From NCBI GenBank assembly GCA_028285065.1, contig JANQQG010000006.1, forward strand, positions 1 to 32,935: a stretch of 32,935 bases of DNA, written 5' to 3'. Both the position numbers and the translations under genes were made by a program. Of the stretch, positions 6,529 to 32,892 are shown piece by piece; position 1 is the stretch's first letter; every line of letters starts with the position of its first letter. Source of the DNA: Phycisphaerales bacterium. Lineage in GTDB: Bacteria > Planctomycetota > Phycisphaerae > Phycisphaerales > UBA1924. The notes beneath the pieces are model-generated. The model saw only the letters and a list, made by a program, of their open reading frames with translations. It did no database searches and had not been told where the DNA came from.

Positions 6529-6858
6529 GGGCGAGGACCTCGATGGAGTACCGAACGAACACCGATCCAGAGGAGTGATCGGGCATCGCGTTTCGCGTGC
6601 CCCGGCGTCCAGAGCAGGACCCGCGGTGCCGAACGGTCGATTCACTGGAGTATAGAACGCCTCGGCGGGAAGCCCCGCCGAGCAGGTCCACCCCCTTTGG
6701 AGTGATGGAAACCCCCCAGAAACGCCGGAACTGGGGTCAATCAGGCACGTATGGTCAGGCGACCGGGCCAGTTCTGTGCCCGCCCGGGGCCCGCACTCGG
6801 CGGGCGCCGCGGAAACGCACCAACCCAGCACCCAACGCCCCCCTACGCGGAGGATGAC
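6529..6858. other. 330-base divergent intergenic region with two inverted repeats
   Basis: This gap separates the minus-strand mutase from the plus-strand sugar dehydrogenase and must hold both promoters. A TATACT-like hexamer on the minus strand (plus 6649-6654) is the best -10 candidate for the mutase, but no convincing -35 was found. Two hairpins occur. The first is a nine-base perfect stem at 6661-6682. The second is an interrupted stem with outer arms GAACTGG (6728-6734) and CCAGTTC (6768-6774) and inner arms GGTC and GACC. No cobalamin riboswitch core was recognised. Short ORFs here have poor codon use. Confidence 0.5.
6661..6682. repeat. Nine-base inverted repeat between divergent genes
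   Basis: CTCGGCGGG (6661-6669) pairs perfectly with CCCGCCGAG (6674-6682) across the four-base loop AAGC. It lies upstream of both divergent genes, so it could be an operator or a transcript hairpin. It has no T-run on either side. Confidence 0.6.
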
Positions 6859-8397
6859 ATGGCCAACCGTTCAACCACCCTCATTGGCGCCGCAGCGATT
6901 GTCGGCGCCGCGTGCACGATGCTCGCCCCGCAGACCGCGTCCGCGCAGTCGCTCGGGCTCGAGTTCGTCGTGGGCGGGATCTCGCGGGCCGTCGACATGG
7001 CCCAGGCGCCCGGCGACTTCGACCGGCTGTACGTGGCCGAGAAGCGCGGGCGCATCCGCGTGATCGACGGCGGCGTGATCCAGCCGCTCTCGTTCCTGGA
7101 CATCACGACGCGCGTCGGCACGTCGAACCAGCTCTTCGACGAGCAGGGGTTCCTCGGGATGGCGTTCCACCCCGACTACCAGAACAACGGGTTCATCTAC
7201 GTCAACTACACCAACAACGCCGGCAACACCGTGGTCGAGCGCTACACCGCAACGAGCCCCCTGTTCACCCCGTTGACCGGGTCGCAGATCGTCATGACGA
7301 TCAACCAGCCGTTCAACAACCACAACGGGGGTTGGATGGACTTCGGTCCCGACGGGTACCTGTACATCGGCACCGGTGACGGCGGCGCCCGCGACGACCC
7401 ATTCAACAACTCGCAGAACACGAACACGCTGCTCGGGAACATCCTGCGCATCGACGTCGACAACGACGACTTCCCGAGCGACCCCAACAAGAACTACGCC
7501 ATCCCCTCGACCAACCCCTTCGCCAGCGCCGCCGGCGCCGACGAGATCTGGGCGTACGGCCTGCGCAACCCCTGGCGCAACGACATCGACCCGGCCAACG
7601 GCAACCTCATCACCGCCGACGTCGGCCAGGACGTCATCGAGGAGATCAACCTCCAGTTCGCGTCCGCGCCGGGCGCAGGGCCCGGCGACGCGGGCTACGA
7701 GGGCGGGAAGAACTACGGATGGCGCTGCTACGAGGGCAACAACCTGTACATCACGACCGGCGGCTGCCCCGGCGCGGGCACGCTCGATTTCCCCAAGCAG
7801 ACGTACAACCACGGCGTCGGCCTGTCGATCACCGGCGGGATGATCTACCGCGGGTGCGCGATCCCTGAACTCGACGGGACCTACTTCTACGCCGACTTCC
7901 TGACCCAGCGCGCCTGGTCGATCAAGTTCGACGGGGCCGGCAACGCGACCGACTTCACCGTGCGCACCGGCGAGGTGCACCCGACGAACGGCGCGAGCCG
8001 CGTCTCCTCGTTCGGGCGTGACAACCTCGGCGAGCTCTACGTCGTCGACCACACGCTCGGGCAGGTCTGGCGCATCGTCGCCGACAACACCGCCGGCTTC
8101 ACCGCCGATGACTGCGACATGAACAACGAGCCCGACGCCTGCGAGATCGCCAAGAACCCGGCGCTCGATGCGAACAGCAACGGTATCCTCGACGTCTGCG
8201 AGGATGCCGAGTGCCCCTGCGATTGGAACGCCGACGGAAGCCTCAACGATCAGGACTTCTTCGACTGGGCCAACGACTTCTTCACCCAGACCGGCCCGCA
8301 GGGCAACTTCGACTTCAACGGCGACGGGAACGACAACGACCAAGACTGGTTTGACTTCACCAACTGCTTCTTCAACCCGCCGGCCGAGTGCCAGTGA
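6859..8397 (+). CDS. Secreted PQQ-type sugar (glucose/sorbosone) dehydrogenase with dockerin-like tail
   Basis: The 512-residue protein has a signal peptide (about 1-30, ending ASAQS). A six-bladed glucose/sorbosone dehydrogenase propeller follows, with QGFLGMAFHPDYQNNGFIYV, HNGGWMDFGPDGYLYIGTGDGG, NILRIDVDND, YGLRNPWRNDID and NYGWRC. The HNGG, GDGG and GLRNPWR motifs are those of soluble quinoprotein sugar dehydrogenases, which oxidise sugars outside the cytoplasm using PQQ and calcium. After the propeller come Asp/Asn-rich repeats (D-C-D-M-N-N type, about 419-451). A final module from residue 452 has two loops DWNADGSLNDQD and DFNGDGNDNDQD, each followed by an aromatic helix. That tail resembles a type I dockerin and probably sorts or anchors the enzyme. 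The ATG at 6859 has GGAGGAT upstream; the longer open frame from 6751 lacks a signal peptide. The exact sugar is not readable. Confidence 0.9.
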   Translation: MANRSTTLIGAAAIVGAACTMLAPQTASAQSLGLEFVVGGISRAVDMAQAPGDFDRLYVAEKRGRIRVIDGGVIQPLSFLDITTRVGTSNQLFDEQGFLGMAFHPDYQNNGFIYVNYTNNAGNTVVERYTATSPLFTPLTGSQIVMTINQPFNNHNGGWMDFGPDGYLYIGTGDGGARDDPFNNSQNTNTLLGNILRIDVDNDDFPSDPNKNYAIPSTNPFASAAGADEIWAYGLRNPWRNDIDPANGNLITADVGQDVIEEINLQFASAPGAGPGDAGYEGGKNYGWRCYEGNNLYITTGGCPGAGTLDFPKQTYNHGVGLSITGGMIYRGCAIPELDGTYFYADFLTQRAWSIKFDGAGNATDFTVRTGEVHPTNGASRVSSFGRDNLGELYVVDHTLGQVWRIVADNTAGFTADDCDMNNEPDACEIAKNPALDANSNGILDVCEDAECPCDWNADGSLNDQDFFDWANDFFTQTGPQGNFDFNGDGNDNDQDWFDFTNCFFNPPAECQ

Positions 8398-9455: not shown

Positions 9456-9564
9456 TGGGTCCGGCGCCGCAACGCGGCACTGGCGCGGGGTGGTTCCCGA
9501 ACACCGCCGCAATCGGTTCGATGCCTTTGGCTGGGCGACGGGCGCGAGTAGGCTCGTTGGAGCG

Positions 9565-10563
9565 ATGCCACGTCAGCCCGTCACTCTGCTCGCCCTTGTA
9601 GTCGTCCTCGACGCTGCGGCGTGCGTCGCCGGCGCCGGCCCCTCGGACATCGCCGATCTGACCACCTGGACGCTTGTTGAGGATCCGGCCAGCCCCTCCT
9701 TCGGCTCCACGGTCGATTCGCCGACCTCGATCACCCTCACAGCCGCCGATGCCTCTCCGGGCGTCGTCCCGGCCGGGACCGACATCGGATACCAGTCCGT
9801 CGACGCCGATACGGCTGCACTCTCGACGTCCGGCTTTGCGTTCGATCCGGCCGCCAGCTTCTCCGTCGCCATCGACTACGACGCCGACTTCACGGGTGCG
9901 AACGCCGGGCTGAGCTTCGGCTTCGGAATCGGTGAGGACGGCTCGGGCGTGAACTCCGCGGGCGTCGCGTTCGTCACGCAGGACGGGCTGCCAGCGCCGA
10001 TCCCCATCGCGGGGCCCGCGGGCGGCGCGGCACGCGTCAATGACTCCACCGTCGCGGGGCTGATCTTCCCGCCCGTCTCGGCAAGTGCGTCGAGCCTCGA
10101 GGGATCGATGCATGCCGCGTACGACGCGGACACCGGCGCCATCACCGTGGGCATCGGGCCGACGGGAGCGATCGCGCCGACGAACACGACGACGTTCGCG
10201 TCTTCGAGTGTTCACGACAACTGGGCCGGCGTCGACATGCTGGTGAGCTTCTTCATCCGCAGCGACACGGTGAGCGTTCCGATCTTCGGGACCGTCTCAA
10301 CGCCGTGGAGTGCGGGGGAGGGCGCAGTCGTGTTCACGAACCTGCGGGTCACCTCGGGTGCGGCCCGTGCGATCGCGGGCTGCCCGTGCGACTGGAACCA
10401 GGACGGCGATCTGAACGATCAGGACTTCTTCGACTGGGTGAACGACTTCTTCAGCCAGGCTGGCCCGCAGGGACAGTTCGACTTCAACCAGGACACCTTC
10501 GAGAACGACCAGGACTGGTTCGACTTCACCAACTGCTTCTTCGGACCACCACCGGGGTGCTAG
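9565..10563 (+). CDS. Secreted protein with dockerin-like C-terminal module, core function unknown
   Basis: The 332-residue protein has a hydrophobic signal peptide (about 1-24). A Thr/Ser/Ala/Gly-rich region follows of alternating polar and aliphatic residues that looks like a beta-sandwich (about 30-265). The dockerin-like module starts at residue 273, with CPCDWNQDGDLNDQD and the second loop DFNQDTFENDQD. The protein ends PPPGC. The second loop has Thr-Phe where the others have Gly-Asn or similar, so it may bind calcium less well. No catalytic motif was recognised in the core; lectin-like or structural roles are possible. The ATG at 9565 was chosen because it places the signal peptide at the N-terminus; GGAG is close before it. 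An upstream GTG at 9490 gives a poor leader. Transcription may continue from the LRAT gene 109 bases before. Confidence 0.8.
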   Translation: MPRQPVTLLALVVVLDAAACVAGAGPSDIADLTTWTLVEDPASPSFGSTVDSPTSITLTAADASPGVVPAGTDIGYQSVDADTAALSTSGFAFDPAASFSVAIDYDADFTGANAGLSFGFGIGEDGSGVNSAGVAFVTQDGLPAPIPIAGPAGGAARVNDSTVAGLIFPPVSASASSLEGSMHAAYDADTGAITVGIGPTGAIAPTNTTTFASSSVHDNWAGVDMLVSFFIRSDTVSVPIFGTVSTPWSAGEGAVVFTNLRVTSGAARAIAGCPCDWNQDGDLNDQDFFDWVNDFFSQAGPQGQFDFNQDTFENDQDWFDFTNCFFGPPPGC

Positions 10564-25571: not shown

Positions 25572-25733
25572 GGAGCGCTCCTTCCGAAAGCCCACGCAGG
25601 GCAAGGCATCCTACCACATCCCTGCCAGGCACCACGCAAGGCGGCCGATCGGGTGAACGCCGAGCACAAGTATGGTGGAACAACGAAGGAGGTCAGGTAG
25701 GATTGACTCGACCGTCCCCGCGATGGAGCCCAC

Positions 25734-26054
25734 GTGAAGATCCCGCTGTTGCTCGCGACCGTCACCTCGACCATCGTCATCGGCGCTTCGGCGACCGCCG
25801 GCCCGGGTGACGTGACGGTCATCGCCCGCTCGGGCACGCCCATCTCGACGCCGTGCATCCCGATCGTCAACGCCTGCCCCGCGGACTGGAACTCCGACGG
25901 CCAGGTCAACGACCAGGACTTCTTCGACTTCGTCAACGACTTCTTCACGCAGACCGGCCCGCAGGGTACGTCCGACTTCAACAGCGACGGCAACCAGAAC
26001 GACCAGGACTGGTTCGACTTCGTCAACGCGTACTTCCCGCCTGGCGGGTGCTGA
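25734..26054 (+). CDS. Minimal secreted protein consisting mainly of a dockerin-like module
   Basis: The 106-residue protein has a signal peptide (about 1-22, LLLATVTSTIVIGASATAG), a short linker of about 25 residues with one Cys, and then the dockerin-like module from residue 48 to the end. The module carries CPADWNSDGQVNDQD and DFNSDGNQNDQD and ends PPGGC. There is no room for any other domain. It may be a free docking module, a competitor or capping piece for the system used by the larger tailed proteins, or a remnant of a longer gene that lost its catalytic part. The start is GTG at 25734 with GGAG six bases before it; no earlier in-frame start fits better. It is 36 bases upstream of the zinc-ribbon protein at 26091 and may be in the same transcript. 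Confidence 0.72.
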   Translation: MKIPLLLATVTSTIVIGASATAGPGDVTVIARSGTPISTPCIPIVNACPADWNSDGQVNDQDFFDFVNDFFTQTGPQGTSDFNSDGNQNDQDWFDFVNAYFPPGGC

Positions 26055-29427: not shown

Positions 29428-32400
29428 TCAGCTGCATGCCGGCGCCGGGTTGAAGTACGCGTTGACGAAATCAAACCAGTCCTGATCGTTCTGGTTCCCA
29501 TCGAGGTTGAAGTCGAAGTGTCCCTGCGGACCGGCCTGGTTGAAGTAGTCGTTGACCCAGTCGAAGAAGTCCTGGTCATTGAGGCTGCCGTCACCGTTCC
29601 AGTCGGCGGGGCAGAACTCGGGGATCCCCTCGCAGCCGTAGACCCCGACCCCGTTGAGGGTGAACCCACCGGCGCTGTCGATCTGGCCTAACACCGCGAA
29701 CGCTTCATCGCCCATTGTTCTGAGCGAAACGACCTCGGCTCGGCTGACGCCGGGCCCGCCATCGACAACCTCCCACGCGGCGCCGACCGAACCAGGATTC
29801 CCCAGGGCGGCCATGCCGTTCGTCGGCGTGAGGATCCCGCCGCAGTTGATGTGATCGAACGTACCGAGGGCGTAGATGGTCCCGCCGGGCCTGTCGTTGA
29901 GGTAGCCGATCGCGTCGACATCACCCGGGCCGCAGGGCCCGGCGTGGCCCTCCAAGGTGAGCCCATCCCACGAACCGACCAGGCCCGCGGCGAAGAAGAT
30001 CCGTGAGCCGAGTGACCCGGCACTGAAGACTTGTGCATCGGTGATCGGTTCCAACGCGGAGTTGGCGTTGTCGACCCCGTTCCATTTCGCGCCGTCCCAT
30101 GAAGCCAGCCGACGGATCGGCCTGATGTCGATCCGCTCGAGGCTCAGCGAGTAGCAGACGACCGATGCGCCGTGGGCCGGGTCGACGATCGACTCGAGCC
30201 GCCCGATGGAACCCTCGGCGCCGACCGGGATCGCGACCTCCGACCCGTCGTAGGTCAGTAGGCCAAACACGGGCCCGAGATCTTGCATCCACTCCGCGTC
30301 CGTGCTCATCCACAAGACCGGCCCCGATCCCTGGTCAACCACGGTTGCCGCATGAAGGCTGTACTGAGAACCGAGGCCGATGTCGACAAAGTGCCAGTCC
30401 GCGCCGTCGAATCGCACGACGGCGTCGAGGCTGCCGCTCAAGCTCGGGCCGGTGTTCCCGACGACGTGCAGCTCGCCGTTGAACGTCACGACATCCCGCG
30501 CCGAGGCGCGGAGCCCCCCACCGACTGGCGCGACCACACCGGCGGCGTCGATCCTGGCGATGCTGTGCTTGTTCTCCCCGGGGACCGGGCGGTAGAACTG
30601 GAAGCCAACCGCGACCAGTTCGGGTCCCGCGCCGAAGTCGAAGACGCTTACCGAATCGACCTCACCCTCGAACACGCCGAGCGACTGCCATGAGACACCG
30701 TCCCAAGCCTGGATCGGGGACAGGTGATGATCTCCGGCGACGATCAGCCTGGTCTGTGATCCATCGTTCCAGGAAAGCGCGTCGTTGATGCCGCTGAAGA
30801 GCAACCCCCCGCCGAGCTCCTCCCACGTCGAGGCGCCCCACCTTGCGACGTAGTCCGTCCCCAGAACCTGGACGTTGCCCAGGATGTGCAGAGCGCCGGC
30901 GTGGACGACCATGCGATGTGCGGACGCCACGGACCCACCAGGGCCGGTCGCGAGCACCGTCGAGTACGGCGCCCAGGCGCCCGAATCGAGCACGTGGATC
31001 GAGGTGCCGCCCGCGCTGTTCATGAGCCCGTACACCTTCGACCCGGTCCCGTCGTCGAAGGCAACGACGTCGACAAGGTCATGCGATGCCAACGGCGGGT
31101 ACTGCTCCCACCCGGTCGGCGTGACGATGGCCACCTGGTCGGCGATCACCCCCGCGTTCTTGGAGAAGGCCCCGGCGATGTAGAGGCGCTCACCGGCGCC
31201 ATCGTCGTACCCAAGGATCTCGGCGACATCGGCATCGAAGCCACCGCCGAGCTCGACCCAGACACCGCTGTCCAGACGCTTGACGTGCCAGTTGCGTCGC
31301 GCCTCGGCATCGAGGGCTGCGACCGCGACGTAGAGGGCCCCACCGAACTCTCCCATCGCCGCGACGTCATCGCCCGGCGCAAGCGCGGGCAGAGCGACGA
31401 GGTTGGTCCCATCGAAGGTCGCGATCCCCGTTGCCGGCGCTCCGTCGATGCTGTCGAACTCGCCCGCCATCGCGACCTTCATGCCCGATCCGTCGTCGAA
31501 CGCGGTGAGGTGCTCGATCTGGGGCGGGTGAGAGGAGTTGCTCAGGCCGAGCCTGTGCCCGATCGGGATCCACGAGGCCCCGTCCCAGCCGATCACGCCG
31601 GGCGAGATCACGGTCCCTCCACCGCCCGCGTCGAAGTCGCCCCCGAGGAAGAGCGTTGGCCCCGCACCCAAGTCGGTGACAACACCCGCCTCGACGTTCC
31701 CCCCGCCGACCAGCGTGTTGTCCAGCCCGCGCCAGGACGTGCCGTCGTAGATCGCAACGCCATCCGGCAATGTGAACTCACCCGTCGCAACCAGCACGCT
31801 GTGCCCGTTCAGCGTCGTTGAGGCGAGCCCACGCACCGGGGCATCGAACGGCGACGCAACGGCGTGGTAGCTCGAGCCATCCCACTTGGCGATGTACTGG
31901 CTCGCCACGCCTCCGGCCTGTGTGAACTCTCCGGCGAGGAACAGTGCCTCGCCCGTACCGTCGTCGAAGACCTCGAGGTCGTGGACCACACCGTCGGTCC
32001 CCGTGCCGACGTGGCCGAGGCTCCCGTTGGTCACGCGCGCCATGTTGTTGACGAAGAAGATGGTCGGCGGTCCGCCGGTGACGTGCTGGAAGTCGCCTGC
32101 GATGTACAACTCAGGCCCATTGCCCCCGCCCGAATCGAAGACCTCGAGCCTCAGAGTGCCAGCAAAACCGGCCGAGATCGAGAAGTACCTTGCCCACTCG
32201 GTCCCGTTCCAGCGCGCAAGTCCGCTGAACGTCTGGCTGGCGGTATCCGTGATGCCCCCCGCGACGTACATCGCGGTGCCGGTACCGTCGTCGTAGGCGA
32301 TGAAGCCTGAGGCGCCGTTGACACGTGCTCCGGATGGGAGCTGGCCGACGTCCTCCCACGACGTGCCGTCGAACCGTCTGATGCTCTCGTCCGGGTTGTC

Positions 32401-32892
32401 GAAGTCCCCTCCGATGTAGAGCTGCTCGCCCGAGCCATCGTCAAAGACGAACATCTCTCGGGGCGTTCCCTCGAACGCCCCTGTGCCAGGCACGTCGGAC
32501 CAGGACCCACCGAGATTCTCACGCACCGCCATGTCGCCGTTGCTGAGGCGGCTTGCGGCGTACAGACGTTCGCCGCCTCCGTCACCCGGATCGAACATGG
32601 CCATAGCGATCGGCCACGAGCTGGAGCTTGGCATGAAGTCTCCGACCGAAACCAGTGCGTTCCCGTCGTACTCGATGATCCCCGGCGGTTCATTCGGGGG
32701 GCTGAGCTGGATCGGCCCCGCGAAGAAGAGGCGAGGGCCCGTCGTCGAATCGAACGGATACGCCGAGGTGCCCGCGAGCGAGCGCGTCGCCAGGAACCGC
32801 GGGAGCCAATCCGGATCGCACTGCGCGCCCGCCTGCCCAACCACTCCGCATGCACCGATCGCGCATGCCGCCGTCCACACAAGCTTCTGCAT
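29428..32892 (-). CDS. Large secreted beta-propeller-type repeat protein with dockerin-like tail
   Basis: The 1154-residue protein has a signal peptide (about 1-24, ending QAGAQ). It then has many copies of a repeat of roughly 45-65 residues with the shape FDDGTG-x-x-LYIAGEF, IAxWDG-x-SW, G. Repeats are visible through most of residues 60-1080 and suggest one or more beta-propellers or a beta-solenoid. The last 61 residues (from 1094) are the dockerin-like module with CPADWNGDGSLNDQD and DFNLDGNQNDQD, ending PAPACS. Such large repeat proteins are typical of Phycisphaerae and probably act at the cell surface, in binding or as structural parts. GGGAGG precedes the ATG at 32892. No enzyme motif was found. 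Function is unknown; the tail groups it with the other three tailed proteins. Confidence 0.85.
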   Translation of the reverse strand: MQKLVWTAACAIGACGVVGQAGAQCDPDWLPRFLATRSLAGTSAYPFDSTTGPRLFFAGPIQLSPPNEPPGIIEYDGNALVSVGDFMPSSSSWPIAMAMFDPGDGGGERLYAASRLSNGDMAVRENLGGSWSDVPGTGAFEGTPREMFVFDDGSGEQLYIGGDFDNPDESIRRFDGTSWEDVGQLPSGARVNGASGFIAYDDGTGTAMYVAGGITDTASQTFSGLARWNGTEWARYFSISAGFAGTLRLEVFDSGGGNGPELYIAGDFQHVTGGPPTIFFVNNMARVTNGSLGHVGTGTDGVVHDLEVFDDGTGEALFLAGEFTQAGGVASQYIAKWDGSSYHAVASPFDAPVRGLASTTLNGHSVLVATGEFTLPDGVAIYDGTSWRGLDNTLVGGGNVEAGVVTDLGAGPTLFLGGDFDAGGGGTVISPGVIGWDGASWIPIGHRLGLSNSSHPPQIEHLTAFDDGSGMKVAMAGEFDSIDGAPATGIATFDGTNLVALPALAPGDDVAAMGEFGGALYVAVAALDAEARRNWHVKRLDSGVWVELGGGFDADVAEILGYDDGAGERLYIAGAFSKNAGVIADQVAIVTPTGWEQYPPLASHDLVDVVAFDDGTGSKVYGLMNSAGGTSIHVLDSGAWAPYSTVLATGPGGSVASAHRMVVHAGALHILGNVQVLGTDYVARWGASTWEELGGGLLFSGINDALSWNDGSQTRLIVAGDHHLSPIQAWDGVSWQSLGVFEGEVDSVSVFDFGAGPELVAVGFQFYRPVPGENKHSIARIDAAGVVAPVGGGLRASARDVVTFNGELHVVGNTGPSLSGSLDAVVRFDGADWHFVDIGLGSQYSLHAATVVDQGSGPVLWMSTDAEWMQDLGPVFGLLTYDGSEVAIPVGAEGSIGRLESIVDPAHGASVVCYSLSLERIDIRPIRRLASWDGAKWNGVDNANSALEPITDAQVFSAGSLGSRIFFAAGLVGSWDGLTLEGHAGPCGPGDVDAIGYLNDRPGGTIYALGTFDHINCGGILTPTNGMAALGNPGSVGAAWEVVDGGPGVSRAEVVSLRTMGDEAFAVLGQIDSAGGFTLNGVGVYGCEGIPEFCPADWNGDGSLNDQDFFDWVNDYFNQAGPQGHFDFNLDGNQNDQDWFDFVNAYFNPAPACS

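Follow-up and report, generated by a model that had tools for sequence, protein, structure and literature searches.

Dockerin-only secreted proteins have been described for Clostridium thermocellum, where double-dockerin proteins without any other domain occur (Chen et al. 2019, 2024; section 11 of the review PMC12484212). According to that section, expression of double-dockerin proteins has been confirmed in transcriptomes and proteomes. In type I dockerins the two ends are clasped by ring stacking, as described in the relevant part of PMC4728124. For planctomycetes, a hypothetical 'planctosome' of Nemodlikiaceae has been outlined, and in the part of PMC6461901 that deals with it planctomycete dockerins are thought to be active outside cellulose breakdown. 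Our literature searches returned no paper that uses the term 'GC-type dockerin' and none that pairs a dockerin with PEP-CTERM.

The gene considered here is located at 25734-26054 of the window, by which we mean the whole analysed stretch of 32,935 nucleotides. Its predicted product shares with the C. thermocellum proteins, as portrayed in section 11 of PMC12484212, the character of a secreted dockerin-only protein, but those have two modules and belong to a cohesin-rich cellulosome, whereas this protein has a single module and the search of its genome detected no cohesin. The 'planctosome' model as presented in PMC6461901 includes cohesins as well, and none was found in this genome. With the GC-type dockerins of NCBIfam family NF041540 the protein has in common a C-terminal two-loop module of secreted proteins, with cysteines at both ends of the module; the siblings in this genome carry a passenger, while this protein carries none. 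We regard it as an additional member of a known domain family with an uncommon architecture. Its features are as follows.

25734-26054, plus strand: open reading frame with a GC-type dockerin only; GTG start, TGA stop, 106 residues
25726..25729, plus strand: GGAG, probable ribosome-binding site from the sequence, 5 nt 5' of the GTG
25734..25799, plus strand: predicted signal peptide, residues 1-22, with an AxA-type end (SATA, then G), from translation and hydropathy
25800..25874, plus strand: linker, residues 23-47, with the odd Cys41, from translation, alignment and GC3
25875..26051, plus strand: GC-type dockerin module, residues 48-106 (Cys48 to Cys106), from NF041540, the model and PDB fold matches
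25884..25919, plus strand: first calcium-binding loop, D51-D62, from translation and alignment
25974..26009, plus strand: second calcium-binding loop, D81-D92, from translation and alignment

The frame extends just nine open codons upstream of the GTG, and because these hold no alternative start, GTG would be the sole start if the gene is real. The signal peptide was called by eye together with a hydropathy scan; residues 1-22 (VKIPLLLATVTSTIVIGASATA) contain one lysine and a hydrophobic stretch before the SATA and the glycine. Both calcium-binding loops are complete in the translation (D51-N53-D55-G56-N59-D62 and D81-N83-D85-G86-N89-D92) and follow the pattern D-x-N-x-D-G-x-x-N-x-x-D. A 67-nt internal direct repeat (25884/25974, 78%) spans the loop regions of the gene. 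The first-pass annotation had described the protein as almost only a docking module, and this is confirmed, as 59 of the 84 mature residues belong to the module; its wording that the whole mature protein is the module is slightly overstated, since a linker of 25 residues remains. A promoter scan restricted to sigma-70 found no promoter-like site near the gene, scans for RNA families and terminators detected nothing, and no tandem repeats were detected. Upstream, GAAGGAGG at 25685-25692 is a strong Shine-Dalgarno-like sequence which, at about 40 bases 5' of the GTG, is too distant to serve it. A frame of 21 codons from an ATG at 25672 (25672-25737) overlaps the GTG with its end.

The module matches NF041540 (dockerin_GC) over the complete profile (positions 1-67 of 67) with an E-value of 1.8e-5 and 25 bits, below the curated cut-off of 29, and the match to Pfam Dockerin_1 (E 0.086) is below its cut-off as well. 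Siblings from the same genome also score below the NF041540 cut-off (18.5 bits for L059, 28.3 bits for L085), and therefore this cut-off misses the sub-type to which the module belongs. As read from the alignments, the low score seems to be caused by a longer inter-loop spacer (GPQGTS-like), which most siblings have as well. The C-terminal position is as in the family, with the protein ending in PPGGC. An AF2 model, computed from this protein and 50 sibling modules, has pLDDT values of 93-97 across the module and helices at residues 60-72 and 90-100, which gives the two duplicated calcium loop-helix motifs of the type I dockerin fold. All ten of the best Foldseek matches in the PDB are to dockerins, though with modest E-values (0.11-2.1); VIA Z reaches at most 5.5 over 58 residues when the model is compared to PDB dockerins. 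A profile search of PDB sequences gave two weak matches, both to chains of 65-71 residues from cellulosomal enzymes. With the type I cellulosomal dockerins (6kgf, 2vn5, 1ohz) the module thus shares fold and loop pattern at an identity of about 18-27%. It differs in how its ends would be held together: the ring-stacking clasp described for type I dockerins in that part of PMC4728124 would be replaced by a cysteine clasp, and no cohesin was found in the genome.

The source genome (2.8 Mb in 262 contigs, 87% complete) holds 71 modules at E<=1e-3, including the one described here. Among the 69 of these which could be mapped, 25734-26054 is the only complete frame that consists of a signal peptide and a module only. 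Other module frames of similar or shorter length are cut by a contig end or comprise half a module, and the next complete short module protein has 147 residues, with a cysteine-rich stretch ahead of the module. Siblings in the window include the following.

29428..32892, minus strand: secreted propeller-type protein of 1154 residues; its module at 29443-29637 is the closest at protein level
6751..8397, plus strand: protein of 548 residues with a C-terminal module at 8209-8388
9490..10563, plus strand: protein of 357 residues with a C-terminal module within 10282-10560

The module at 29443-29637 is 81% identical over 54 residues to that of 25734-26054, and an inverted match of 163 nt (83%) links the two genes. 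A local duplication from this neighbour was considered and rejected: the two modules share a DNA identity of 0.827, which is just the median value for a module and its nearest neighbour and indicates no special link. In the tree, both modules group with C104:948 (support 0.905). The passengers are varied and include a propeller-like protein, an FG-GAP/ASPIC protein and a serine-protease match far below its cut-off; the protein at 6751..8397 has a weak glucose/sorbosone-dehydrogenase match, also below cut-off. A Pfam scan left eight of ten passengers without a match at E<=1e-5. The named genome collection yielded three loci, all within long proteins and two of them from a MAG titled Longimicrobiales, and one passenger in a MAG of this collection is annotated as 'choice-of-anchor B'. 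We take this name to suggest that the module replaces other C-terminal anchors. The two loci from the Longimicrobiales MAG (L101 and L102; JANQNV010000149.1 and JANQNV010000163.1) have dockerins very similar to those of the source genome, and the title or the binning may be wrong.

Cysteines and profile scores were compared for 67 of the 71 modules, leaving out C175:197 and C220:6639, which lie outside the fetched DNA, and the incomplete C106:9025 and C61:6799. A cysteine occurs at most 14 residues after F101 in 59 of the 67. Cys48 and this cysteine are both present in 56 modules and both absent in 8, with 3 discordant cases (Fisher 2.5e-8); positions 50 and 99 are both cysteine in 35 modules and both another residue in 31, with a single discordant case (Fisher 2.7e-18). 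As the modules are paralogues, both Fisher values are too small. The covariation pattern indicates that two disulfides are likely in the family, one as an outer clasp and one between an inner pair of cysteines. This would explain the 'GC' ending structurally, as one half of a clasp and not as a sorting signal. The protein encoded at 25734-26054 has the outer pair only (Cys48-Cys106), the inner pair being missing, and the third cysteine of the mature protein, Cys41, is unpaired if the outer two form a bond. L006 (C91:13678), whose module ends directly after NAYF and has neither of the outer cysteines, is one of eight modules of this kind in the genome.

The reading frame has a GC content of 0.54/0.47/0.96 at the three codon positions. 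GC3 is 0.957 in the signal peptide and linker and 0.966 in the module, compared to 0.84-0.94 in five other genes of the window; the gap ahead of the gene has an overall GC content of only 0.63. In leave-one-out profile scoring the module ranks 6th among the 67 of its genome. The seven paralogues closest in dN give values of 0.14-0.17 for dN and 0.29-0.61 for dS, in a comparison of paralogues and not of orthologues. The frame shows no apparent sign of decay. An intact start, signal peptide and pair of loops had been cited against decay from the outset, and codon bias and profile rank agree with this.

The N-terminal 47 residues have no convincing match in 163 genomes of the family. The best one outside the source genome has an E-value of 0.009 and was taken as probably due to chance. 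Thus, orthologues of similar length, which the first-pass annotation had proposed to look for in related genomes, did not turn up, nor was a longer protein found that shares the N-terminus and of which the gene might be a truncation. This is a weak test for orthologues, as the genus is represented by this one genome. With no orthologue found, short or long, truncation and new joining are not distinguishable. In a synteny comparison with 19 recQ loci of relatives, of which four span 14-15.5 kb and the remaining ones about 3.4-4.9 kb, recQ was the only one of seven window genes to be matched. As far as the present data reach, the gene appears to be lineage-restricted.

The module itself is widespread, occurring at least 30 times in 11 of 14 genomes counted. 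Four relatives have 373 modules together (109 in G160, 103 in G007, 30 in G108 and 131 in G013). We read 36 of their 39 module frames of up to 300 residues (leaving out C33:85936 of G013 and two contig-end pieces of 35-41 residues, C23:104567 of G160 and C15:16355 of G007); lengths were measured from stop to stop, so that a short gene within a long frame could escape. One of the 36 is passenger-less: L107 of G160 (C22:87887-88342, minus strand) has a signal peptide, a linker and a module, the second loop of which is degenerate. This gene sits between two other dockerin genes. Of the other frames read, some are cut off at contig ends, some lack a signal peptide, one has a stop in its module and the rest carry a passenger. 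A further genome, G010, has 111 matches, and among the matches listed three short frames were read (L125-L127), none of them module-only. Module-only proteins are thus rare, with 25734-26054 and the one imperfect case from G160 in the genomes surveyed. A class of mini-proteins recurs in which a signal peptide and a GC-type dockerin flank about 50 residues that show an IGQ...GG.F.LSGGFW-like pattern (L055, L056, L057, L058, L108, L120, L122, L125 and L128).

That the module docks proteins to a partner had been the premise of the earlier functional ideas, and for this genome it is so far unsupported. A search with the cohesin profile PF00963 gave nothing at E<=1 in any of six genomes, namely the source genome and five module-rich relatives (G160, G108, G079, G007 and G013), although these carry from 30 to 150 or more modules each; with the source genome at 87% completeness, a cohesin could have been missed there, as could a strongly diverged one. 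PF00963 matches were obtained for 15 of the 163 family genomes at E<=0.01, nine of them above the cut-off, and therefore the search is able to detect cohesins in this family. Judging by their translations, several of the cohesin-positive proteins terminate in loop-helix repeats of their own. Since the usual docking partner was not found in the source genome, terms like 'dock', 'compete' and 'cap' have so far no molecular basis.

We consider it somewhat probable that 25734-26054 is an intact gene of the large GC-type dockerin paralogue family, whose product can be exported but carries no passenger; a dedicated role is not required. An acidic mature protein of 84 residues would be exported; it would then fold, binding two calcium ions, and a Cys48-Cys106 disulfide would close its ends. 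Judged by kinship, it may bind whatever its siblings bind, occupying the same site on the cell surface or in a complex as an empty plug without cargo. Its origin within the lineage is probably recent: either a signal peptide and a module were fused, or a passenger was lost. We call it young because no orthologue was found and the genus comprises one genome, so that the age rests on absence. The recurrence of signal peptide, linker and module in L107 could mean that such proteins are useful, and this counts against the explanation which we favour, as does the NF041540 score below its cut-off. The initial interpretation is supported in part. Since neither a partner nor an orthologue was found, the protein is better seen as a recent offshoot without passenger than as an established regulator, and any regulatory effect is speculation.

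Rather doubtful is the alternative that an internal in-frame deletion removed the passenger from a larger dockerin protein and that the gene is a remnant on its way to being lost. Eleven of the 67 modules (this one included) have a cysteine aligned with Cys41, several of them behind a longer cysteine-rich stretch, and Cys41 may be the left-over of a cysteine-rich passenger, or else a means of dimerisation. Broken modules do exist in relatives, such as C25:9588 of G013, which is interrupted by a TAA, and, separately, a module piece of 90 residues without signal peptide. However, neither a degenerate loop nor a stop is found in 25734-26054, its profile score is among the top ranks, the linker has coding bias as well, and among the family genomes no longer protein sharing its N-terminus was found.

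About equally doubtful is a dedicated free dockerin, which would compete for, cap or buffer the sites of tailed proteins, or would act as an adapter joining two of them, perhaps as a Cys41 dimer. The intact, canonical module with its own signal peptide and ribosome-binding site would fit this role, as would the second passenger-less protein in G160 and the three mature cysteines, one of them unpaired given a Cys48-Cys106 bond. However, the degenerate second loop of the G160 counterpart, and the negative searches for a conserved orthologue in the 163 family genomes and for a cohesin in the source genome all speak against it. Furthermore, a single gene would require high expression to act against about 70 siblings, and the sigma-70 scan detected no promoter-like site.

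A more far-reaching proposal, which we regard as improbable, is a large display system at the surface of these bacteria, in which dockerins with a disulfide clasp would fasten 30 to more than 100 secreted proteins to a receptor other than a cohesin, with the free module filling or capping this receptor as a secreted regulator, possibly bridging two sites as a Cys41-linked dimer. Finally, a chance open frame can be dismissed: although the high-GC window is rich in long spurious frames (161 ORFs of at least 80 residues) and a frame of 258 residues runs antisense to the gene, the latter has no Pfam match at E<=1, and module homology, fold, codon bias and signal peptide all refute this reading as far as sequence allows.

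The passenger-less module offers a natural minimal probe for finding the partner of this widespread module. Genus g2 has very few modules (4 in G001, none in G002 and 1 in G003) while other genera of the family have more than 100 (G010, G014, G160 and G013 among the genomes), a distribution which is useful for analysing partner co-occurrence.
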